Source: Chlorobium sp. (GTDB taxonomy: Bacteria; Bacteroidota; Chlorobiia; Chlorobiales; Chlorobiaceae). Taken from it: a stretch of DNA of 33,831 nt. Positions 7,098-19,371 of this stretch are shown here, one piece after another. Location: assembly GCA_005843805.1 (NCBI GenBank), contig SZXY01000098.1, forward strand, positions 1-33,831, given 5' to 3'. The position numbers and the translations under genes are program-made. Each line of letters starts with the position of its first letter. Position 1 is the first letter of the stretch. Below the pieces are notes generated by a model that saw only the letters and a program-made list of their open reading frames with translations, ran no database searches and had not been told where the DNA came from.

Positions 7098-8483
7098 TTG
7101 TTTTTCAGACTCTTTTCATATTTCCTCATTGCTGCTTTTTTTTTCGTTTGCCCCTCAACCGGAACAAGCGCTGAAACGGCAGAGAAAAAGTTTTCTCTTG
7201 CCCGCTGCATTGAGATAGCTCTTAATAACTCGACTTCGGCCAGGAAGGCCCAAAATACCCTGAAGCTTCAGGGTTCCGATGTACTGAGAAGTTACGGCAG
7301 CTTCCTTCCCCGACTCTCAGCCTCTGCCAGCTATTCTCCCTATGTTTTGAGCCGCAGTTATACGCAAGACAACTCAGGAATAACAAGCCTGAAATCAGAG
7401 AGTAAATCGCTTGATCTGATTCTGACCAGCTCCCTCAATCTTTTTAATGGATTCCGTGATTACGCTTCCCTGCAAGCTGCACTGAAAACAGAGGATGCTG
7501 CTCGATACTCCCTTTCGAGGGCACTGCAAACCATCGTTTTCGACGTTACCCAATCCTATTATCAGGTACTCCTGAACCGCGAACTGTTTGAAATTGCTCG
7601 TGAAAACCTTCTTCTTTCCCGCGATCAGTTGACGCTCACTAACCGGCAGTTTCAGATTGGCCTCAAATCCATAATAGATCGCGACCAGCAGCAGGCTGAC
7701 GAAGCCGAAACCCGCCTCTCGGTCATCAAGGCAGAAACCCGCCTTCAACAAAGCATGCTCGAACTGGTGCGCCGCATGCAAATCGACCCCACGACAAAGT
7801 TCAGCCTTGAAGCTCTCCCCGACAGCCTCAACACACCTGTTTCGGCACAACCCGACCCGGAATCTCTTGTTACGATTGCCTTTCAGCGACGCAGTGATCT
7901 GAAAAGCAGGGAGCTGGCCGTGAAAGCGGCAACATGGCAGGTCACCCAGGCAAGGTCGCCCTTCTATCCGCGTCTTGATCTGAACTTCAACGTCAGCACA
8001 GGAGGTATCGATTATCTTCACCAGAGCATAGGCAATGTTCCTTTCATCTATTCCTACCCTCCTCTCTCGAATCAGCTTTCAAACTCAATCGGATATTCGG
8101 TTGGACTGAACCTCAGTTGGACGATTTTTGACGGATTCCAGACTCGTTACAATATAGAATCGGCAAAAATCAACAATATCAACCAGCAGCTCGATTACGA
8201 GGATCTTAAAAACTATATCTTCATCGATCTTCATCAGGCAGCAAAAGAGTACACTTCAGCATGGATGCAGATTGAAACTGCCAAAATAAGCCTGAAAGCA
8301 GCACAATCGGCTTTTGATGGCATCAAGAGAAAATATGACCTTGGAGCGACAAGTTTTATCGAACTCAGCTCTGCTCGAGCCTCACTTTTCAATGCCCGAT
8401 CCAACCTCTCCCAGGCGACCTACAATCTCGCACTGCAGAAAAACATTCTTGACTTCACGACAGGCAACATAACCCTGCCATAG
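7098..8483 (+). CDS. TolC-family outer-membrane efflux protein
   Basis: The 461-residue protein begins with a signal peptide ending in STGTSA and then shows the repeated TolC helical-hairpin pattern (SLARCIEIALNNSTSARKAQ at the start; ALQTIVFDVTQSYYQVLLNRELFEIA; the second repeat ending GATSFIELSSARASLFNARSNL). TolC trimers form the outer-membrane channel of tripartite exporters. The only start giving a proper signal peptide is a TTG at 7098; the upstream in-frame stop at 7050-7052 leaves no ATG. The gene is followed within 25 nt by the MacA-like adaptor and then the ABC ATPase and permeases, so this is the outer-membrane part of that system. Confidence 0.93.
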   Translation: MFFRLFSYFLIAAFFFVCPSTGTSAETAEKKFSLARCIEIALNNSTSARKAQNTLKLQGSDVLRSYGSFLPRLSASASYSPYVLSRSYTQDNSGITSLKSESKSLDLILTSSLNLFNGFRDYASLQAALKTEDAARYSLSRALQTIVFDVTQSYYQVLLNRELFEIARENLLLSRDQLTLTNRQFQIGLKSIIDRDQQQADEAETRLSVIKAETRLQQSMLELVRRMQIDPTTKFSLEALPDSLNTPVSAQPDPESLVTIAFQRRSDLKSRELAVKAATWQVTQARSPFYPRLDLNFNVSTGGIDYLHQSIGNVPFIYSYPPLSNQLSNSIGYSVGLNLSWTIFDGFQTRYNIESAKINNINQQLDYEDLKNYIFIDLHQAAKEYTSAWMQIETAKISLKAAQSAFDGIKRKYDLGATSFIELSSARASLFNARSNLSQATYNLALQKNILDFTTGNITLP

Positions 8484-8508
8484 TAACCAGAATCCGGTAG
8501 ACCATCCG

Positions 8509-9762
8509 ATGAGCAAAAAACAACCCTTTCTGAAACGAAAATCCATACTGATCACCCTTGCCGCTCTCCTGCTTGCAGGAGGAGTTGCCGTTACACTGCT
8601 AAAGTTAAGGGAAAAGCCCGTTGAGGTAACCACCGAAAAGGTGTTCAGCAAAGAGGTTGTTCATATCGTTACAGCAACCGGAAAAATAGAACCGGAACTG
8701 GTAGTGGCAATGTCGCCAGACGTTTCCGGAGAAATTATAGAACTCCCTGTCAAGGAGGGCCAGAGTGTGCGACAAGGAGAGTTGCTGTTTAAAATTCAGC
8801 CCGACCTCTACGTCAACCAGGTGGAACAGAGCCTTGCACAGCTCAATCTGGCAAAATCCCAAAGCCTTGAGACGCAGTCCAGAAAACTCAAGGCGGAAGA
8901 TGATTTCCGCAAGGCTTCGCTGCTTTACAAGGAAAAGCTGATCTCCGAATCCGATTTCATCGCATCAAGAACCATTGCAGAGGCTGCAGAAGCCTCTTAT
9001 AATGCATCTCGCTATACCATAGAACAAAACCGAAGCCTGCTTCAGCAGAACCAGGACAGGATGAAAAAAACCGTAGTTCGAGCACCCATCAGCGGTTCCA
9101 TCATAGCCCTGAACAGCAAACCAGGTGAACGTGTTGTCGGCACAGGCCAGTTTCCTGGCACAGAGGTACTGCGGCTTGCCAACCTTGACAGTATGCAGGT
9201 TAAAGTCGAGGTCAATGAAAACGACATTGTCAATGTCAGAATCGGCAATCCAGTTTCAATCACAGTAGACGCTTATGGTGATCGAATCTTCAAGGGAGTC
9301 GTCCATGAAATCTCCAACTCGGCCATATCGAAAGCGGCTGGCACACAGGAAGAGGTCACAAATTTTTCGGTAAAGATCCGCATCGTCAACCACGAACGGT
9401 TGCTGAAACCAGGAATGAGTGCAACGGCAGATATTGAATCGCAAAGGGTAAAAAACGCCCTTGTGGTTCCCATTCAAAGTGTGACCATCAGAACTGCTTC
9501 AGGCAGTGTCGATAGTGAAAAACATGAGAAAACAGCTCTAACCATTTCCTCTGCAGGCAAGGCGATTGAAAGCAGGCAGGGTGTTTTTGTGATCAAATCA
9601 GGCAAGGCAACTTTCCGGCCAGTCAAAACCGGCATCACCGACAATACCCATATCGTGGTTACCGAAGGGGTCAATAAAGGAGAAGAGGTTGTGTCAGGAA
9701 GCTACACCGCCATTACCAGCCAGCTCAAGGAAGGAAGTCAGGTCAAACAGCAGCAAAAATAG
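8509..9762 (+). CDS. Periplasmic adaptor protein of a MacAB-type exporter (HlyD/MacA family)
   Basis: The 417-residue protein has one N-terminal TM helix (about 12-30) and the membrane-fusion-protein order: half lipoyl domain ([20 protein letters not shown], about 78-97), a coiled-coil hairpin (about 105-185), the second lipoyl half ([21 protein letters not shown]), then beta-barrel and membrane-proximal domains. It bridges the inner-membrane ABC permease and TolC. It is encoded between the tolC-like gene and the ABC ATPase in one operon. The C-terminus is Gln/Lys-rich and its last bases overlap the over-extended ATPase ORF of the track. Confidence 0.93.
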
Positions 9763-9769
9763 CCCCGGT

Positions 9770-10459
9770 ATGCCCGCAAACTCTGTCATCTCAATGCAAT
9801 CGCTCTGCAAATTCTACGAAATGGGCGATCAGGTTGTACGGGCACTCGACTCTATCAATCTTGAGTTCAGGCTGAACGACTATGCCGCAATCATGGGACC
9901 ATCCGGCAGCGGCAAGTCAACACTCATGAATATTATCGGATGTCTCGATACGCCAACCTCCGGCACCTATGAACTCAACGGCCAGAATGTTGCGAAAATG
10001 GATGATGATGACCTTGCCCGCATCAGAAACAAGGAGATCGGGTTCGTCTTCCAGACCTTCAACCTTCTTCCACGCCTCAACTGCCTGCGTAATGTCGAAC
10101 TCCCGCTGATCTATGCCGGAGTCTCTCCAAAGGAGCGGGAAGAGCGTGCTGCGGAAGCCCTTGTCAAAGTTGGACTCGGCGACCGTATTACACACAAGCC
10201 TTCCGAACTTTCCGGTGGTCAGATTCAAAGGGTAGCCATAGCGAGGGCACTCATCAACAAGCCCTCAATCATCCTTGCCGACGAGCCAACCGGAAACCTC
10301 GATACCGCAACCAGCCGCGACATCATGGATATTTTCGGAGCACTCTCCGCAGCAGGCAACACCATTATCCTCATCACCCACGAAGAGGACATTGCCCGCT
10401 ACACACGCCGTATAATCCGGCTCCGGGACGGTAAAATTGAAAGCGACACCAGGCAATAA
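9770..10459 (+). CDS. ABC transporter ATPase (MacB/LolD type)
   Basis: The product of about 229 residues is a complete nucleotide-binding domain: Walker [10 protein letters not shown] (about 43), Q-loop [11 protein letters not shown], signature [15 protein letters not shown], Walker [12 protein letters not shown] and switch His ITHEE. The family drives lipoprotein, macrolide or peptide export with FtsX-like permeases. The track start (9689) runs back into the adaptor gene. The ATG at 9770, 7 nt behind its stop, fits the family better; 9797 is a shorter alternative. Unlike classical MacB the ATPase is separate from its permeases, and two foreign-looking genes stand between them here. Confidence 0.94.
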
Positions 10460-10470
10460 CATTGCATTAT

Positions 10471-10498
10471 CATGATTTATTTCAGAACTTAAATCATG
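10471..10498. promoter_or_regulatory. Perfect 9-bp inverted repeat before the AAA/Toprim cassette
   Basis: CATGATTTA and TAAATCATG flank a 10-nt spacer in the 64-nt gap between the ABC ATPase and the AAA-family gene. The stem is AT-rich and has no T-tract, so it looks more like an operator or a weak processing hairpin than a terminator. Its placement suggests separate control of the cassette; this is inference. Confidence 0.4.
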
Positions 10499-10523
10499 TT
10501 TACCCTTTAAAAAAAATGATGCC

Positions 10524-11630
10524 ATGCTGCAAGAGCTCTATGTCAACAATTATAAATGCCTGGTAAATTTTACCTTGCCAATAAAAAACATCAATCTGGT
10601 TCTTGGTCGTAACGGCACAGGAAAATCAACCGCGTTTGAAGTACTTTCCAGACTGCAAAGTTTTATTGCCGGGAATGAACGGCTAACCAGGATTTTCCCG
10701 CCTGATACGCTGACAATATGGCTAAAAAGTCAGCTCCAGCATTTTGAACTCCGACTTAATGTTGAGGACAGAGCTTATCATTACAAACTTATCCTTGAAC
10801 ATAACAGCAATAAAGTGCTTTGCAGGGTTCAACTCGAACAATTGACAATTGACGGAAATCTTCTTTTTGAATTTGAAAACGGAACGGCCCGACTTTTTCA
10901 CGATGATTTCACCAAAGGCCCGGAATATCCGTTCGACTGGTCACAATCAGGATTGGCAACATTACAATCACGCCCGGACAATCAACTGCTGACCTTATTC
11001 AAACAGCAGATCAATGGTATGGTGATTATAAAACCAAATCCAGCCATGATGATCAGTGAAAGCACCAGCGAGGAAAATTTCCTTTCCATCGACTGCACTA
11101 ATTTTGCATCCTGGTACCGTTTTCTGTCACAGGAAAATCAAGCTGAAATCTTTGAACTTACCCATAAACTCCGGGAAGTTATCGATGGATTTTACTCTTT
11201 CAAACTGATGCAGTCAGGAGAAGAAACCAAATCTTTGCAGGTTGGCTTTATCTCAGAAAACAATGAGCTTATTCATTATCGATTCAAAGAACTCTCAGAT
11301 GGACAGCGCATCATCATTCTGCTTTACACATTGCTCTATGTTATCAATCGGAAAGGTGCTTGCCTTTGTATTGATGAACCGGAAAATTACCTTGCATTAC
11401 CGGAAATCCAGCCTTGGCTGATAACATTGTTCGATATCTGCCAGGAACGTAACATTCAGGCTATCATTGCCTCTCATCACCCGGAGATCATAGATTACCT
11501 TGCTGCGGATTCAGGACAGTGGTTTGAACGCTTTCCAAACAGCCCGACACGAGTCCGGCAAATCAGTGAAAATGGCGACTTTGGAATTAAAATATCAGAA
11601 CTTGTAGCAAGAGGATGGATTAATGAGTAA
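10524..11630 (+). CDS. AAA_21/OLD-like ATPase (first gene of a two-gene cassette)
   Basis: The 368-residue protein is an SMC/RecF-type ABC-class ATPase: strand MLQELYVNNYKCLVNF, Walker A GRNGTGKST (about 28), signature-like FKELSDGQRIIILLYTLL (about 258), Walker B CLCIDEPENYLAL (about 283) and sensor His IIASHHPEII. Such ATPases pair with small Toprim/RloB-like proteins in several phage-defence systems (PARIS-like, AbiL-like, Gabija-like). The next gene is such a partner and overlaps this one by 8 nt. The pair is inserted between the ATPase and permease genes of an exporter, which is unexpected for an export component. A role in defence is inference from architecture. Confidence 0.85.
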   Translation: MLQELYVNNYKCLVNFTLPIKNINLVLGRNGTGKSTAFEVLSRLQSFIAGNERLTRIFPPDTLTIWLKSQLQHFELRLNVEDRAYHYKLILEHNSNKVLCRVQLEQLTIDGNLLFEFENGTARLFHDDFTKGPEYPFDWSQSGLATLQSRPDNQLLTLFKQQINGMVIIKPNPAMMISESTSEENFLSIDCTNFASWYRFLSQENQAEIFELTHKLREVIDGFYSFKLMQSGEETKSLQVGFISENNELIHYRFKELSDGQRIIILLYTLLYVINRKGACLCIDEPENYLALPEIQPWLITLFDICQERNIQAIIASHHPEIIDYLAADSGQWFERFPNSPTRVRQISENGDFGIKISELVARGWINE

Positions 11631-12162
11631 CGAAAGCTCAATGGTGATAATTCTATGCGAAGACTCACAACAAGAAGCATTTCTTCGGCGCTTTCTGAAA
11701 AAACGCAATATTGTCGGCAAAAAGATAAGGGTTGTCAAAAATCCTGCAGGGAAGGGTTCTGGAGAGCATTTCGTCAGAAAAGAGTTCCCCATGCAATTAA
11801 ATGCACTCAGAAAACGATCGGCTAAAACAGATTTGATCGTAGCCATTGATGCGGATCTCTCAGAAGTCACTCAAATCAGGCAAAAACTGGAAACCGCATG
11901 TTCAGAACAACAGATAGATCGGAGAGCAGAAAAAGAACGAGTATCCTTTATAATTCCGAAAAGAAACATTGAAACCTGGATACATTATTTGAATGGGAAT
12001 GAAGTAAATGAACAATCTGTATACCCAAAACTGCAAAAAGAATCCGACTGTCAATCCGCAGTCGATTATTTATACGAAATTTGTTCTGTCAGCAAATCGT
12101 CTGCCGGATTTCCCGACTCTCTGCTCGATGCTTGTCATGAATACAAAAAAATTGAACGGTAA
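11623..12162 (+). CDS. Toprim/RloB-DUF4276-like small protein (second gene of the cassette)
   Basis: The 179-residue protein has a Toprim-like order: first strand followed by acidic residues (VIILCEDSQQEAFLRRFL, Glu/Asp about 13-14), a later strand with a DxD motif (LIVAIDADLS, about 70), and then IIPKRNIETWIHYL (about 110), which resembles the conserved Glu-containing segment of RloB/DUF4276 proteins. Toprim folds cut or join nucleic acid using these acidic residues. The start ATG lies within the last codons of the AAA gene (ATGAGTAA overlap), indicating translational coupling. The downstream permease gene starts 6 nt after its stop, so the cassette is within the same transcript. Exact family assignment is uncertain. 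Confidence 0.68.
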   Translation: MSNESSMVIILCEDSQQEAFLRRFLKKRNIVGKKIRVVKNPAGKGSGEHFVRKEFPMQLNALRKRSAKTDLIVAIDADLSEVTQIRQKLETACSEQQIDRRAEKERVSFIIPKRNIETWIHYLNGNEVNEQSVYPKLQKESDCQSAVDYLYEICSVSKSSAGFPDSLLDACHEYKKIER

Positions 12163-12168
12163 CAGGCA

Positions 12169-13434
12169 ATGAACCTGAACTACCGACAGTTTCGCTATGA
12201 AACCGAAGAAAGCCTCAAAATTGCCCTCTTCCAGATCAGGGCAAATAAAACGCGCTCCTTTCTGACTGCACTCGGCGTCATTATCGGCATTGTTGCAATT
12301 ACCATGATGGGCACCGCTATCAACGGCATTGACCGGGGATTTGAAAAAAGCCTCGCCATGCTTGGCTACGACGTAATCTATGTTCAGAAATCCTCATGGA
12401 CAACCATGGGCCAATGGTGGCTCTACCGTAACCGTCCCGATCTGAAAACACAATATGCCGACCAGATAAACCGGATCATTGCCGACAATCCCCGTTCCGA
12501 GCTTCTCATAGCCGTGCCGCAGATGTCAACCTATATGGCATCGGCTAAATACAAGGATCAGATTCTGGAACAGGTTTTTTCTCTTGGCACAAACCACGAG
12601 TACCTGCAGACCGCATCAGGCAACATAACCGCCGGACGGTTCTTTACCCCTGGAGAATCAGCCAGCAGCGAAATGGTCTGTGTCATCGGCGACGATATTG
12701 CCGTGGGGCTCTTTCCCAATGAGCCAGCTCTTGGCAAGTCACTCCAGATCAAGAATTATAAATGCCGGATTATCGGAATTTTCAAAAAACAGGGAAAATT
12801 CCTCGGGCTTTTCAGCTTTGACAACCAGATCATAATGCCGCTTGGTGCCTTTGAAAAGGTATACGGCAAAAACATGTTCATCACCATCAGGGTGAAAATC
12901 AGGGAGCAGACTCATATTGCAGAAGCAAAGGAGGAGCTGCTCGGGCTGATGAGAAGAATCCGCAGACTTCCTCCAGGCAAGGAAGAAAACTTCTCGATCA
13001 ACGAACAGCAGGCATTCAAAAGCCAGCTTGATCCAATCAAAAACGGCATTGCGGTAGCAGGTATATTTATCACCGGCATGTCACTCTTTGTCGGGGCTAT
13101 CGGCATCATGAACATCACCTTCGTCAGCGTCAAGGAACGCACCAGGGAGATTGGACTGCGCAAGGCGCTCGGCGCAAGACGGCGTACCATTCTTTTGCAG
13201 TTTCTCATCGAATCGGTGATGATCTGCCTTATAGGAGGGTTTATCGGGCTTGCCACCTCCCTTTTCATTACCTTTTCCATTGAAAAAATCATGCCTGACT
13301 TTCCAGTCCAATTCTCACCAGACCTGGTACTGGCAAGTCTTGCTGTTTCAGTCATCACCGGCATTATCTCAGGCCTTGCTCCGGCAGTTACCGCTTCGAA
13401 GCTCGACCCGGCAGACTCACTTCGTTATGAATAG
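12169..13434 (+). CDS. MacB/FtsX-like ABC transporter permease (first)
   Basis: The 421-residue protein has the MacB permease plan: one TM near residues 25-50 (TRSFLTALGVIIGIVAITMM), a large periplasmic MacB_PCD domain, and three C-terminal TMs beginning at about 285 with IFITGMSLFVGAIGIMNITFVSVKERTREIGLRKALGA, the family signature. It forms the membrane part of the exporter with the ATPase at 9770 and the second permease. Two paralogous permeases suggest a heterodimer. It starts 6 nt after the Toprim-like gene. Confidence 0.93.
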   Translation: MNLNYRQFRYETEESLKIALFQIRANKTRSFLTALGVIIGIVAITMMGTAINGIDRGFEKSLAMLGYDVIYVQKSSWTTMGQWWLYRNRPDLKTQYADQINRIIADNPRSELLIAVPQMSTYMASAKYKDQILEQVFSLGTNHEYLQTASGNITAGRFFTPGESASSEMVCVIGDDIAVGLFPNEPALGKSLQIKNYKCRIIGIFKKQGKFLGLFSFDNQIIMPLGAFEKVYGKNMFITIRVKIREQTHIAEAKEELLGLMRRIRRLPPGKEENFSINEQQAFKSQLDPIKNGIAVAGIFITGMSLFVGAIGIMNITFVSVKERTREIGLRKALGARRRTILLQFLIESVMICLIGGFIGLATSLFITFSIEKIMPDFPVQFSPDLVLASLAVSVITGIISGLAPAVTASKLDPADSLRYE

Positions 13435-13442
13435 GAGTACCC

Positions 13443-14678
13443 ATGCTGCTGCGTGAAACCATAACCCAGGCGATCTACTCCCTGGCAGTCAACAAGCTCC
13501 GCTCATGGCTCACCGTCATGGGTGTTGCCGTAGGTGTCTTTTCCATCATTGCCGTCATGACCGCTCTCGATGCCATCGACAAAAGCGTCGAGTCAGGTTT
13601 GACAAGCCTCGGAGCAAACACCTTCCAGATACAGAAAAATCCTGCGACAGTCTTCGGCGGCGGGCACAACAGAAACATGTATGCAAACCGCAAGGATATC
13701 ACCTACAAGCAGGCACTCTTTTTCCGGAAAAACATGGAAGCATCTGCCAGGAATATCGGGTTCATAATTTCCAGCCGAACAAACCAGGCAAAATATGCCA
13801 CCCAGACCACCAATCCCGATGTCACCCTTAGCGGTGGAGACGATAACTTTTCCGCATCGAGCGGCTACTCCATAATGACAGGACGCAATCTTGCTGAGGG
13901 AGATATCCGGTATGCAAGAAATACCGCTGTTCTTGGAAACGAAGTTGCCACAACGCTCTTCGCTTCCAACGAAAACCCGCTGAACAAATCCATCAAGGTT
14001 AATGGAGAGGTTTATACCATCATCGGTGTTTTTGAAAAAAAGGGAGCAGCGTTCGGCCAGAGCCAGGATAACTTTGTGCTTATTCCAATTACCCGATACC
14101 TCGATCATATCAACGAAAAGAGCAGCCTGAGCATAACGGTTGAAGCGCTCTCCCGCAAAGATTATCCGTTTGCCATAGACCGGGCTATCGGAGCCATGAG
14201 ACTTGCCCGTGAGCTGACCGTCAAGGAACCCAACGATTTCGAAATCAGAACAAACGAATCCCTTATCGACTCTTTCCGTGATATAAAGCGGGCCATCAGT
14301 ACTGGAGCCTTCATCATCAGCTTTATGGCCCTCCTGACTGCAGGTGTCGGCATCATGAACATCATGCTGGTCAGTGTCACTGAACGGACAAGGGAGATCG
14401 GCATCAGGAAATCAGTTGGAGCCCCGCGCAACACCATCCTGCGCCAGTTTCTCTTTGAATCGTTTTTTCTCTCGCTTGCAGGCGGCCTTATAGGAGTAAT
14501 TGTCGGCATCGTAGCCGGCAACGCCGTAGCCTTGAAATTCAACCTGCCACCCATATTTCCCCTGCTCTGGATAACCGTTTCCATGGTTGTCTGTTCAATT
14601 ATCGGCATGGCCTTTGGACTCTTCCCGGCATGGAAAGCCGCCAACCTCAACCCGGTGGAAGCCTTGAGACCGAAGTAA
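13443..14678 (+). CDS. MacB/FtsX-like ABC transporter permease (second)
   Basis: This 411-residue paralogue of the preceding gene has the same order: N-terminal TM (KLRSWLTVMGVAVGVFSIIAVM), a periplasmic domain of about 220 residues, and the C-terminal signature GVGIMNIMLVSVTERTREIGIRKSVGA followed by two more TMs. The start is supported by AGGAG 6 nt upstream, 8 nt behind the first permease's stop. It closes the exporter operon. Substrate cannot be read from sequence; lipoprotein, siderophore or peptide export are all known for the family. Confidence 0.93.
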   Translation: MLLRETITQAIYSLAVNKLRSWLTVMGVAVGVFSIIAVMTALDAIDKSVESGLTSLGANTFQIQKNPATVFGGGHNRNMYANRKDITYKQALFFRKNMEASARNIGFIISSRTNQAKYATQTTNPDVTLSGGDDNFSASSGYSIMTGRNLAEGDIRYARNTAVLGNEVATTLFASNENPLNKSIKVNGEVYTIIGVFEKKGAAFGQSQDNFVLIPITRYLDHINEKSSLSITVEALSRKDYPFAIDRAIGAMRLARELTVKEPNDFEIRTNESLIDSFRDIKRAISTGAFIISFMALLTAGVGIMNIMLVSVTERTREIGIRKSVGAPRNTILRQFLFESFFLSLAGGLIGVIVGIVAGNAVALKFNLPPIFPLLWITVSMVVCSIIGMAFGLFPAWKAANLNPVEALRPK

Positions 14679-14748
14679 GAAATATGAATGGGTTACTCAC
14701 CCGGCCTGTGGATTTTTTCAGCCGAAATATGTGTTCTTCTCTTCATAC

Positions 14749-14780
14749 CTCCTGAAAGAGAAGATCCAAAACTTCAGGAG
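14749..14780. terminator. Hairpin downstream of the exporter operon
   Basis: CTCCTGAA and TTCAGGAG are separated by 16 nt, about 70 nt after the second permease stop. No T-tract follows, so a rho-independent terminator is only a weak possibility; an RNA-processing stem is another. Confidence 0.35.
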
Positions 14781-14840
14781 ATCTGACTGAGCTATAGCAG
14801 ACTTTGACTCTAACCCTTCATATAACGAGGAGGCACAATA

Positions 14841-15194
14841 ATGGAGACCCAACAGTTAATTGAAAGCTATCACCAGGCCTGGACAAACGGCGATTTTGCA
14901 ACAGCTCGCAGATGCCTTGCTGATGATCTCGATTTCCGAGGTTCTATCGACACCTTTTCGAAGGCTGACGATTTTATTGCCGCATTATCGCAGTTCCGTC
15001 AGATGGTTCGCAGCGTCACCCTCCTGCAAAGCTTTTATGGCAAAGAAGGCGCCGCACTTCTTTATGACTGCGATACACCAACTCCGGCAGGAGTCATCCG
15101 CACTGCTGAATTTTTCACTGTTTCAAAGGAGAAAATTTCTGCCATCCGTCTGGTCTTCGATGCTACTGAATTAAGAAAATCCATGCCGGGCTGA
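14841..15194 (+). CDS. SnoaL/NTF2-like protein
   Basis: The 117-residue single-domain protein begins METQQLIESYHQAWTNGDFATARRCLADDLDFRG, the typical first helices and strand of the NTF2/SnoaL cone fold, and ends with a family-like sheet (AEFFTVSKEKISAIRLVFD). Members are small-molecule-binding or isomerase-like proteins; the substrate here is unknown. A strong GAGGAGG ribosome-binding site precedes the ATG. It lies 28 nt ahead of the Nramp gene and may be its operon partner. Confidence 0.82.
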   Translation: METQQLIESYHQAWTNGDFATARRCLADDLDFRGSIDTFSKADDFIAALSQFRQMVRSVTLLQSFYGKEGAALLYDCDTPTPAGVIRTAEFFTVSKEKISAIRLVFDATELRKSMPG

Positions 15195-15221
15195 GCCATC
15201 AAACACTGAATTCGCAACAAA

Positions 15222-16487
15222 ATGGTTCAAGCCTCCATGAAGTCAGCAACAACCAGGAAAAAAGGGTTCCCCCTCAAAACCCTTCTCGGTTTTCTGGGGC
15301 CGGGCTTTCTTGTTACTGTGGGTTTTGTCGATCCCGGAAACTGGGCTACAAATATCGAAGGCGGCTCACGTTTCGGCTATGAACTGCTCTGGGTGGTCAC
15401 TCTTGGCACCATCATGCTCATCATTATCCAGCACATGGCGGCCAAACTCGGCATTGCGACGGGAAAATCACTCGCAGTCAATATCCGTGAATTTTTTCCA
15501 AAACCGGTAGCAACCTTTCTTGGTTTTACCGTTCTGCTCGCCTGTATCGCCACCGATGTAGCCGAGCTTCTGGGTGGCGGCATCGGCTTCAGCCTGCTTT
15601 TCGGCATACCGCTCTGGTGCGGCGCCCTCCTGACGATTCTTCTCGAGATATTCCTTATCATCAGCCAGAGATATCACCGGATAGAAACAATCATTGTGGG
15701 TTTCCTCGGTATAATCACCTTTTGCTACCTCATCGAACTTCTTATCGTCCAGCCGGACTGGTCGGCAATCGCACCAGCGCTTGTTGTGCCGAAAGTTAAC
15801 AAAAACAGTATCTATGTCGCCATGGCCATTCTTGGAGCACTGGTGATGCCTCACAACATCTTTCTGCACTCAAACGTCATTCACAGCAGAAAATGGGGAA
15901 TTTCCGAGAATGAAAAGATGGCGCAGCTCCGGTACGAAAAAATAGACACTCTGTTTGCCATGATTCTCGGATGGGTAGTGAACTCATCGATGATCATCGT
16001 GGCTGCGGCTGTATTTTTTCACAACCAGGTTACGGTCAGCACTATTGAAGAGGCATCTGCAACGCTCAAACCACTTGCAGGACCATTTGCCGGTCTGCTT
16101 TTTGCCATTGCCCTCGTTTTTTCCGGTATCGGCTCTTCCATGACCTCCTCCATGGCAGAAGCAAACGTCATCACAGGCTTTCTTGGAAAACCCGAAGACC
16201 CGAGAACAGCGCTCTACAGGCTGGCCGTTTTTTTAACAGCCATTCCTGCTTTCATTGTGATAGTGTTCAGCATCGACACCTTTCGCATCCTGATTTTAAG
16301 CCAGGTGATGCTGAGTATTCAGTTACCCTTTACCCTGGTGCCACTCCTGATACTCTGCCGTAACGTGAAAGTCATGGGTGCATTCAGAAGCCGAAACATC
16401 GAGTTTGCTGCCGCTTCAGTAATTTCCGGAGTGGTTATCCTGCTCAACCTCTATTTTTTCTATACCACATTGACCGGGGGAAAGTGA
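15222..16487 (+). CDS. Nramp-family divalent metal transporter
   Basis: The 421-residue inner-membrane protein has about 11 TM segments. The Nramp metal-site motifs are intact: DPGN in TM1 (VGFVDPGNWATNIEGG, about 37) and MPH in TM6 (GALVMPHNIFLHSNVIHSR, about 208). Family members import Mn(II) or Fe(II) with protons. Of the bacterial subgroups this one carries W after DPGN instead of the common F. The UspA gene starts 1 nt after its stop, so the two are co-translated. Confidence 0.93.
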   Translation: MVQASMKSATTRKKGFPLKTLLGFLGPGFLVTVGFVDPGNWATNIEGGSRFGYELLWVVTLGTIMLIIIQHMAAKLGIATGKSLAVNIREFFPKPVATFLGFTVLLACIATDVAELLGGGIGFSLLFGIPLWCGALLTILLEIFLIISQRYHRIETIIVGFLGIITFCYLIELLIVQPDWSAIAPALVVPKVNKNSIYVAMAILGALVMPHNIFLHSNVIHSRKWGISENEKMAQLRYEKIDTLFAMILGWVVNSSMIIVAAAVFFHNQVTVSTIEEASATLKPLAGPFAGLLFAIALVFSGIGSSMTSSMAEANVITGFLGKPEDPRTALYRLAVFLTAIPAFIVIVFSIDTFRILILSQVMLSIQLPFTLVPLLILCRNVKVMGAFRSRNIEFAAASVISGVVILLNLYFFYTTLTGGK

Positions 16488-16488
16488 G

Positions 16489-16899
16489 ATGCGACTTTAC
16501 AGAAAAATCCTCGTTGCCATCGACTGCTCAGCGGTTGACGAGACCATTATGGAACATGTATCGGCACTCGCACTTCAGCTTGGGGCCAGCCTGCATCTGC
16601 TGCATGTCGTTCATTCCCACACCCTCGACCAGGAGCGGATTCTTCGCGAAGAGTCCGCCATCATCCTTAACCGTTACCGCGACAAACTGCAGAATGAGGG
16701 GATCGATGTAAAGATTATTCTAAGAAGCGGTGAACCCGAGAAAGAGATACTCGGTGAAACTGGGGAAAACTCCTACGATCTCCTCGCAATGGCGACCCAT
16801 GGTCACAGTTTACCTGAAAGAATTCTCTTTGGCAGCGTTTCAAGGACTCTTCGACAAAAAATCACGATACCGCTGCTCCTTATCCAGCCGGATCATTGA
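16489..16899 (+). CDS. Universal stress protein (UspA family)
   Basis: The 136-residue protein has the Usp Rossmann-like fold: KILVAIDCSAVDETIMEHV at the start and the ATP-binding signature MATHGHSLPERILFGSVSRTL near residue 102 (G-x2-G-x9-G-S type, with some spacing deviation), then KITIPLLLI. It is probably an ATP-binding stress protein. It is directly coupled to the Nramp gene (1-nt gap), an arrangement suggesting a regulatory or metal-stress role. Confidence 0.92.
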   Translation: MRLYRKILVAIDCSAVDETIMEHVSALALQLGASLHLLHVVHSHTLDQERILREESAIILNRYRDKLQNEGIDVKIILRSGEPEKEILGETGENSYDLLAMATHGHSLPERILFGSVSRTLRQKITIPLLLIQPDH

Positions 16900-16963
16900 G
16901 TGAAAAATGGAAATTTTGTATTTTTCAGAATTGAGCTTCCAGGAACTTAAACATTGATTAATT

Positions 16964-17653
16964 ATGACATCCATGCATAAGCTTTTAAAACCTGTCGCAC
17001 TTCTTCTCATTCTTGCAATGACCACCCTTACCTGGGGCTGCGAGACGACAACCAGGACGGGTCGGGGTGCAGGTATCGGCGCCTCTGCCGGAGGCGTTAT
17101 CGGCGGTATTATCGGCAGCAGGTCGGGCAGTTGGGCCAAAGGAGCAATCATCGGTGCAGTCATTGGCGGAGCTGCAGGAGCAATGATCGGCAATTACATG
17201 GACAAGCAGGCGGCTGAAATCGACCGGGATGTGCAAGGCGCAAAAGTGGAACGGGTGGGTGAAAGCATCAGGGTTGTTTTTGATTCCGGCCTTCTCTTCT
17301 CGACCAATTCAGCAACACTGACATCGACCAGCAGATACAACATTGAAAAACTTGCACGAATTCTCAACCGCTACAACGACACCAACATGGTGATTGAAGG
17401 CCATACCGACAGTATCGGCAGCGAAGCCGAAAACCAGTCGCTCTCTGAAAGAAGGGCTGAAGCTGTGGCAAACCTCCTCAAAGCTTATGGCGTTGCTTCC
17501 CACAGACTCTCTCCCGTCGGATACGGCGAAACACGCCCTGTTTCATCCAACGAAACAGAGCCCGGTCGCAAGCTTAACCGCCGTGTTGAAGTGCTGATCT
17601 ATGCAAACGATGACCTCCAGCGCCAGGCTGCATCCGGTGAGTTGAGAATGTAA
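16964..17653 (+). CDS. OmpA-family lipoprotein with glycine-zipper segment
   Basis: The 229-residue product has a signal peptide and a lipobox-like end (TLTWGC, Cys about 26), then a glycine-zipper hydrophobic stretch (GAGIGASAGGVIGGIIG..., about 35-80). From about 110 to 215 there is an OmpA_C peptidoglycan-binding domain (GHTDSIGSEAENQSLSERRA and the arginine at NRRVEVLI). It should sit in the outer membrane and bind peptidoglycan, YiaD-like. A good terminator follows. Confidence 0.93.
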   Translation: MTSMHKLLKPVALLLILAMTTLTWGCETTTRTGRGAGIGASAGGVIGGIIGSRSGSWAKGAIIGAVIGGAAGAMIGNYMDKQAAEIDRDVQGAKVERVGESIRVVFDSGLLFSTNSATLTSTSRYNIEKLARILNRYNDTNMVIEGHTDSIGSEAENQSLSERRAEAVANLLKAYGVASHRLSPVGYGETRPVSSNETEPGRKLNRRVEVLIYANDDLQRQAASGELRM

Positions 17654-17683
17654 ATCCTGCATCAAAAAAAAATTTCTCCCCAT

Positions 17684-17722
17684 AAAAAAAAGCCTGAATG
17701 CAAGCGCGTTCGGGCTTTTTTT
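17684..17722 (+). terminator. Rho-independent terminator after the OmpA-like gene
   Basis: An A8 run, the stem GCCTGAA/TTCGGGC (one G-T pair) around a 10-nt loop, and a T7 tract lie 31 nt after the stop codon. The A/T flanks make it usable in both directions. Confidence 0.88.
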
Positions 17723-17826
17723 GCTAACAAAGAAAACTGAAAAAAAGCTTACATTTCGGGCCATTGAGGTCAGCCTTTCATGCCTGGTTGTAAATGGCTG
17801 GCAGAAAAACACAGGGAAAACAAAAC

Positions 17827-18231
17827 ATGCACACCATGCTGTATTTCAAAAATGCCGAAGAGGTTCTGTTTCAATGGGTTTCACGGGTCTGCAGCGGTAG
17901 TCCGGAAGAGATTGCCGCGCTTTACAATGAATCTGCAGTCCTTATTCCTACATTTTCTCCCCACACCGTCATAGCCCCTGAAGGGGTCAACGGATACTTC
18001 GGACAACTCGCATCAAGAGACGGGCTTGGTGTTCGTCTGCACAGCAAGGCGCTCAGAAAACAGTCGCTGAGCGAAAATCTGCATACCCTGAGTGGCATTT
18101 ACTCTTTTGAGTTTGAGGTTGACCAGGTACTCCTCTCCTTCCCTTCACGATTTACCTTTGTGATGGACATCTCGCTTCCCAAACCTATTCTTCACCACCA
18201 CTCATCGCAGGTACCAAGAAATCTCTCATAA
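17827..18231 (+). CDS. NTF2-like / CaMKII association-domain-like protein
   Basis: The 134-residue protein (from ATG 17827) has the NTF2-like pattern: EEVLFQWVSRVCSGSPEEIAALYNESAVLIPTFSP, APEGVNGYF, and two long C-terminal strands (TLSGIYSFEFEVDQ, RFTFVMDI). Related proteins are annotated as CaMKII association-domain or SnoaL-like; function is unknown. I preferred this start to 17794 because AGGGAAA lies upstream of it, whereas 17794 has none, and the fold begins at MHTMLYFKN. It is monocistronic, between two hairpin terminators. Confidence 0.78.
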   Translation: MHTMLYFKNAEEVLFQWVSRVCSGSPEEIAALYNESAVLIPTFSPHTVIAPEGVNGYFGQLASRDGLGVRLHSKALRKQSLSENLHTLSGIYSFEFEVDQVLLSFPSRFTFVMDISLPKPILHHHSSQVPRNLS

Positions 18232-18243
18232 ACCCTGCCCAGG

Positions 18244-18276
18244 GGGCAATGCCAACCTGAACGGAAGGCATTGCCC
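18244..18276. terminator. Strong hairpin between convergent genes
   Basis: GGGCAATGCC and GGCATTGCCC form a perfect 10-bp stem with a 13-nt loop, between the rightward NTF2-like gene and the leftward lpxD. It lacks a long T-tract but its position suggests a bidirectional transcription end. Confidence 0.65.
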
Positions 18277-18318
18277 TTGAAGAATTAAACCATTACAGCA
18301 CACTGCAAAAAGGGCAAC

Positions 18319-19371
18319 CTACCCCTCCTTGAGCTTTTTCAGTTCAGATTCAAGCCGATCGAGTTTTTCCTTCATGGCGCCAAGGTTGCGCAGCATCGCC
18401 TCATGCTTCAACTGGTCGCGCATGGGCTGCGCCGGATATCCCCGGAGCGAAATACCGGACTGAAGAAAAGATTTCGAAATACCAGCCTGGGCGGCAACAT
18501 TGATGCGGTCGGCAAGTTCAAGATGACCGGCAAATCCTGCCTGTCCACCAATCATACACTGCCGGCCTATCGTTACACTTCCGGAAATACCAGCCTGGGC
18601 GGCAATAACCGTATCTTCGCCAATCCTGCAGTTATGGGCAACCTGAACGAGATTGTCAATCTTGGCCCCCCTGCCTATCACGGTACTCCCCAGGGTTGCC
18701 CTGTCAATGGTGGCATTTGCGCCAATCTCCACATCATCACCAATTTCAACGATACCCATCTGGGGAATCTTCACGTAAGATCCATCACTCTGCGGGGCAA
18801 ACCCGAAACCATCCGCCCCAATGACACATCCCGAATGCATGACCACCCTGCACCCCACAACAGTGCCATTGTAACAGGTCACATGGGGAAAAAGAATTGA
18901 ATCAGCACCAATGGAGACATCCTGAAAGAGAACGGTATGAGCACCAATGACAACATTGCTGCCAATCGAACAGCGATCGCCGATAACCGCGTACTCTCCA
19001 ATCGAGACACCTTCACCAACAGAAACTCCTTCACCGATAACCGCAGTCGGAGCTATACCTTTGGCAGCAATGGTACGGGGCGGAGCAAATTTCTGCAGAA
19101 GAAAAACAAATGCGGAATAGGGATCACCAACTTTAATAAACGATCTCTGATCAATAAACTCATCGACACACATTGAACGATGAACGATAACCAGCGATGC
19201 CTCGGTTACAGCAAGAAACCGGATATATTTCTCGTTGGCAATAAAGCTTACCTGCCCCTGATGTGCGGTTTCGATCTTTGCCGGACCGGAAATCTCAACG
19301 TCACCATTTCCAGCCAGTTCAACAGAATCAAAAAACCGCCCAAGGTACTCTCTGATCTCCTGAATAGTCAT
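18319..19371 (-). CDS. lpxD: UDP-3-O-acylglucosamine N-acyltransferase
   Basis: LpxD adds the second 3-hydroxyacyl chain in lipid A synthesis. The 350 residues show the N-terminal uridine-binding domain (to about 100), a long left-handed beta-helix of hexapeptide repeats (for example [20 protein letters not shown]), the catalytic-region segment [24 protein letters not shown] with its His near 243, and a C-terminal helical tail rich in Lys and Glu. Length and order are normal. It is transcribed alone, divergently from prs. Confidence 0.96.

Follow-up and report, generated by a model that had tools for sequence, protein, structure and literature searches.

A gene pair within a MacAB/TolC exporter operon

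The window (the whole stretch of DNA analysed, 33,831 nt of a Chlorobium contig) contains a MacAB/TolC exporter operon on the forward strand. Its genes encode a TolC-like outer-membrane efflux protein (7098-8483; PF02321 OEP, 1e-57), an HlyD/MacA-like membrane fusion protein (MFP; 8509-9762; PF16576, 5.5e-21), an ABC exporter ATPase (9770-10459; PF00005, 4.7e-33) and two MacB-type permeases, perm1 (12169-13434; MacB_PCD 2e-33, FtsX 5.7e-23) and perm2 (13443-14678; MacB_PCD 1.1e-32, FtsX 1e-22). The fusion protein is about 76-83% identical to those of the relatives compared. Two further forward-strand genes stand between the exporter ATPase gene and perm1: gene A (10524-11630), encoding an OLD-type ABC ATPase of 368 aa, and gene B (11623-12162), encoding a small Toprim/RloB/DUF4276-like protein of 179 aa. 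Gene A starts 64 nt after the ATPase stop (10459) and overlaps gene B by 8 nt (11623-11630), and the stop of gene B lies 6 nt ahead of the perm1 ATG (12169). A preliminary description of this DNA had reported the same overlap and had the pair separating the ABC ATPase from its permeases at the same distance from perm1; the coordinates confirm both points.

GC content is 41% in gene A and 40% in gene B versus 48-53% in the genes of the host operon, and GC3 is 42% and 35% versus 51-61%. Compared with the pairs of two related genomes, G073 and G082, the window pair has a dN/dS of ~0.09-0.13, which indicates purifying selection on both genes. At its junctions, the insert is flanked on both sides by a direct repeat of 8 bp on the forward strand, CAGGCAAT (left CAGGCAATAAC, right CAGGCAATGAAC), with one copy at 10450-10457 and the other at 12163-12170, the latter extending into the start codon of perm1. 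The repeat is possibly a short target duplication at the insertion edge, and its shortness may also fit selection preserving both gene ends. A palindrome (10471-10498, unstranded) lies in the 64-nt leader of gene A, with perfect 9-bp arms CATGATTTA (10471-10479) and TAAATCATG (10490-10498) around a 10-nt loop and a fold z of -2.8. The palindrome noted in the preliminary description is thus present ahead of the pair, but a role for it is unsupported: no counterpart was evident in the gene A leaders of G073 or of a third relative, G013, and we rejected it as a conserved element.

Predicted proteins

Gene A, the proposed sensor, matches Pfam AAA_21 (5e-19) and also AAA_15. It carries a Walker A motif (GRNGTGKS, from residue 28), a signature motif (LSDGQ, 257-261), a Walker B motif (CLCIDEPE) and an H-loop (SHHPE), the residues of which are invariant or nearly so across 69 homologues. 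A Foldseek search with the AlphaFold2 model (pLDDT 89.9) returned the OLD nuclease 6p74 as the best match (E 2e-13), followed by Rad50 and PtuA. Its motifs and OLD/Rad50-like predicted fold place gene A in the OLD family of ABC ATPases.

For gene B, the proposed nuclease effector, the residues invariant across 69 homologues are D76, D78, P112, I116, W119 and E130, and E13 is nearly so. With strand positions taken from the AlphaFold2 model (pLDDT 90.4), E13 follows strand 1 and D76xD78 follows strand 3, and a motif P112KRNIETW119 is present. This arrangement corresponds to the Toprim layout of acidic residues (E, then DxD, on a Rossmann-like fold) and makes gene B a predicted nuclease. Gene B is assigned to Toprim on the basis of its motifs, its topology and weak profile matches to RloB, DUF3226, DUF4276 and HEC-01B. 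RloB (PF13707) scored 19.8 bits against a Pfam gathering cut-off of 31.5 and matched just 1 of the 69 family members, and HEC-01B models matched at most 37 of 69, each weakly. Foldseek searches of PDB and BFVD with the gene B model gave no match at E ≤ 0.001 to solved or viral structures. The earlier designation of the two genes as an OLD/AAA_21 ATPase and a Toprim/RloB-like protein is borne out, with RloB reached only below its cut-off.

Empty and occupied sites in the Chlorobiaceae

We searched 86 genomes of the host family, from two genera, with perm1 and with gene B. The junction between the exporter ATPase gene and perm1 was readable in 81 of these, including the window, and in about 75 of the 81 the two genes abut or overlap. 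The usual empty site is a 4-nt overlap, ATGA, in which the ATPase stop runs over the perm1 start; small offsets in a few genomes partly reflect alignment ends. Only four genomes (the window, G073, G082 and G013) have the pair at this junction, which is the same in all four carriers even though they belong to two genera, and a B-like protein occurs in 7 of the 86 genomes. The pair is inserted relative to these empty sites, as proposed in the preliminary description, and with 4 of 81 junctions occupied it is not conserved at this place.

Two other inserts were seen in the same exporter operon, and neither is related to the pair. One locus (L079, G003:C10) has ~150 extra nt, without a gene, at the exact ATPase/perm1 docking junction, possibly a small mobile repeat. 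Another (L046, G067:C104) has an insert of ~1.1 kb between perm1 and perm2 that holds an outer-membrane beta-barrel-like gene on the opposite strand.

History of the docked pair

The four carriers fall at scattered positions in a tree of exporter proteins, among species whose site is empty. In a tree of 69 gene A proteins, the four docked copies form one clade with support 1.0, and its topology, ((window, G073, G082), G013), mirrors the host genera. This grouping indicates that the four docked pairs share common ancestry. Because the four carrier proteins form one clade, there would have been a single docked lineage, either inherited with many losses, passed around, or both.

Between ddl and the ATPase gene, G073 and G082 are for the most part identical or nearly so. 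Their synonymous divergence (dS) is 0.000 in the MFP gene, 0.046 in the ATPase gene, 0.09-0.17 in the pair (6-8% protein difference), 0.89 in perm1 and 1.57 in perm2. From perm1 onward, G073 instead matches G085, an empty-site genome, at 95-99%. G073 is therefore a mosaic consistent with transfer via flanking homology, with the proviso that several key relatives, G073 included, are metagenome-assembled and single mosaics could be assembly chimeras; the G073 pair is nonetheless distinct from that of G082, at the protein difference given above. Comparison of these loci indicates that recombination does occur at the exporter locus in relatives. As far as the junction, the flanks of G013 are those of its own genus, and we rejected the arrival of its pair together with flanks of the other genus. 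Since these flanks belong to its own genus, the G013 copy would have come without long foreign flanks or would have come long ago.

An ancient origin offers another account of this pattern, in which the pair entered once in the ancestor of the Chlorobiaceae, descended vertically and was lost about 15 times without any lateral transfer, leaving a declining old defence gene. It agrees with the native flanks of G013 and with the mirroring of the two genera in the gene A tree, and the same clade would be expected from one insertion and 15 losses. However, one insertion at the root requires all 15 of these losses, each of which must restore a tight junction, and movement of docked copies by recombination would require fewer events. 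The G073/G082 mosaic also points to exchange at the locus. We consider this account unlikely in its strict form, and it could be partly true alongside replacement by empty-site DNA.

A second docking site in the Methylococcaceae

Among seven species of the Methylococcaceae genus to which G086 belongs, five have the pair between gltB and gltD, and in the other two the site is empty. G095 (L188) and G096 (L189) differ little in gltB (dS 0.11), gene B (0.03) and gltD (0.07), whereas gene A differs strongly (dS 1.26, 73% amino-acid identity). The gene A proteins of G095 and G086 are 98.7% identical, and the flanks of G086 are far more diverged. Gene A alone has been replaced by a divergent allele, which is what one would expect of the component that does the recognising in a defence system. 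The genomes are drafts and at least partly metagenome-assembled, and the switch coincides with gene A, not with the end of a contig.

Relatives and their neighbourhoods

Scanning one genome for each species turned up 383 relatives of gene A in other bacteria, and the best 80 of the 383 were retrieved, among them Cyanobacteria, Chloroflexi, Thiotrichaceae and other groups. Gene B adjoins gene A in 73 of these best 80, so that the pairing is conserved in other phyla. Viral contigs yielded no pair, and plasmids gave two distant matches for gene A and none for gene B; on these results we rejected carriage of the pair by phages or plasmids.

Cousins of the pair reside inside BREX-type operons in two Chlorobium genomes, between brxC and a PglX-like methylase gene in G053 (L091, C88, operon at 7256-19000) and behind brxC in G066 (L092, C77). 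Their residence there supports the defence-like nature that the preliminary description had attributed to the pair. In G053 a second pair, of OLD-ABC and DUF4276 genes, follows the PglX-like gene and precedes pglZ, so that this BREX operon holds two distinct ATPase/Toprim-like pairs.

Other neighbours of the pair include gltB and gltD, a fadB-like gene, an AMP-binding enzyme, metH, dprA, rapZ and an SbcD-like gene, and most neighbours outside the Chlorobiaceae look like housekeeping rather than defence genes. The pair was operon-internal in 15 of 70 cases (21%) versus 49 of 243 (20%) for control ORFs called at the same loci with a crude ORF caller (Fisher p = 0.87). We therefore rejected enrichment at operon-internal sites and claim no operon tropism. 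In several Nostoc genomes (loci L163, L164, L165, L167 and L175), another gene, of ~375 aa, lies within 4 nt downstream of the pair, and a gene of 1100-1300 aa follows as well; these genes possibly form a larger system with the pair. Some neighbours at the Nostoc loci match AriA/mad3-like ATPase models.

The largely housekeeping surroundings would suit a non-defence OLD-type ATPase that has a Toprim-like partner and a housekeeping job. OLD relatives with cell-cycle roles exist, and the archaeal OLD protein Cran1 is reported to have a housekeeping role (PMC12796447). A housekeeping gene would not be expected to be as patchy as the B-like protein of the Chlorobiaceae, and residence in BREX operons and swapping of gene A alleles are likewise ill-suited to one. 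We regard a housekeeping job as improbable.

A function tied to the exporter is a very poor prospect in our judgement. Genes A and B might act with the MacAB pump, for example in regulation or as an accessory to export, so that position would reflect function. The single junction common to four carriers of two genera would fit, as would a pair that is co-directional, tightly spaced and probably co-translated with perm1. Yet most relatives have the same operon without the pair, its cousins live in BREX and gltBD operons, and a single ancestor at the site explains the shared position without any function. Near the best 80 of the 383 gene A relatives outside the Chlorobiaceae we found no homologue of an exporter permease or fusion-protein gene, merely scattered and distant ABC-ATPase matches. 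On this ground we rejected an exporter-linked function, and the obligatory link between exporter and defence pair implied in the preliminary description is not supported.

Finally, although the draft assembly of the window genome comprises 208 contigs, the chance of an assembly artefact is negligible: three other assemblies that differ in sequence (gene A 61-75% identical) show this arrangement too, the reading frames are intact and the gene ends are coupled.

A probable travelling defence module

We favour the reading, to which we assign a probability of roughly 75%, that the pair is a horizontally moving, PARIS/HEC-01-like sensor-nuclease defence module and a guest of the MacAB/TolC operon. 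Close relatives have empty sites at both docking places, as a mobile guest should leave (4 of 81 junctions occupied in the Chlorobiaceae, 5 of 7 at gltBD). Because relatives possess the pump alone and the pair occupies different operons elsewhere, it reads as a travelling guest and not as a part of the pump.

Under this travelling-module reading, the pair would be transcribed from the host exporter operon, and perm1 would be re-initiated from the stop of gene B, 6 nt away, rather than from the ATPase stop. Gene A would bind ATP and detect an infection cue, holding gene B in check or releasing it (PMC12839542, PMC12409363). Once triggered, gene B would cut nucleic acid, whether tRNA or DNA, leading to growth arrest or death of the infected cell. 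The docked copy would be gained and lost partly via homologous recombination in flanking host genes, gene A would be exchanged as an allele, as expected of an arms-race sensor, and the exporter would be a bystander.

More tentatively, and with doubt prevailing over confidence, the docked copies might jointly be read as immune alleles. In that case, a defence pair that has no mobile element of its own would use fixed docking sites in core operons, namely the macAB exporter in Chlorobiaceae and gltBD in Methylococcaceae, where sister species differ in its presence. Expression would be kept by translational coupling to host genes, and the sensor gene alone would be swapped between species by homologous recombination.

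Defence systems have mostly been found via islands or mobile elements, whereas this pair sits in ordinary operons. Docked loci offer clean before-and-after comparisons (empty, occupied, swapped sensor allele) in closely related operons. With them, the recognition target of the sensor gene and any burden of the guest pair on its host operon become directly testable.

Relation to known systems

Among PADLOC models (2023 library), gene A scored best to PDC-M25A (86 bits), followed by AriA (82), HEC-01A (71) and AbiLi (60). No system in this library covers both genes strongly, and no model places the pair in a non-defence family, which had been named in advance as a result that would count against a defence role. 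The families suggested for comparison fared less well: neither strict PARIS nor Gabija nor RloB applies, and AbiL applies to gene A only.

The pair resembles PARIS, a class 4 OLD system composed of the OLD-ABC ATPase AriA and the Toprim nuclease AriB, in having two separate, adjacent and co-directional genes for an ATPase and then a Toprim-type protein. The PADLOC AriA model has the same length as Pfam AAA_21 and is likewise matched by gene A. However, neither Pfam nor PADLOC gives gene B a match to AriB or DUF4435, and gene A is shorter than the solved AriA (368 versus 464 aa) with a match confined to the P-loop. PARIS itself has Ocr as its trigger and tRNA as its target. Lacking an AriB-type effector, the pair was rejected as PARIS sensu stricto. 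In Gabija, GajA carries a fused Toprim domain and is followed by the GajB helicase; we rejected this identity for a pair with no fusion and no helicase, the next gene being a MacB permease.

AbiL, consisting of AbiLi and AbiLii, has a two-gene layout of an ATPase and an RloB-like protein. The pair shares this layout, but gene B has no AbiLii match. Similarly, gene B matches no PDC-M25 model despite the top score of gene A.

The nearest named pair in PADLOC is HEC-01, where HEC stands for Hma-embedded candidate (Payne et al. 2024 preprint, cited in PMC12988326). HEC-01A models match up to 69 of 69 gene A members and the commonest HEC-01B model 37 of 69. Gene B of the window reaches only 21 bits with partial coverage, and gene A scores higher to PDC-M25A, so the pair would be at best a divergent cousin. 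HEC systems were discovered because they lie embedded within other defence loci (PMC12988326).

The recruitment of Toprim-linked OLD-ABC dyads into BREX operons has been described (PMC12839542). The Chlorobium cousins within BREX operons are similar to these, although the window copy stands in an exporter operon and not in a defence locus. Restriction-modification systems occurring as mobile insertions (for example PMC3031569) provide a looser parallel of a defence cassette without an obvious mobile element and with a short flanking repeat. The pair is not a restriction-modification system, however, its 8-bp repeat is weak evidence, and its exchange resembles homologous recombination in the flanks. 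From its sequence, the pair is best classed as a dyad of an OLD-ABC ATPase and a Toprim-like protein, a variant of an already known type.
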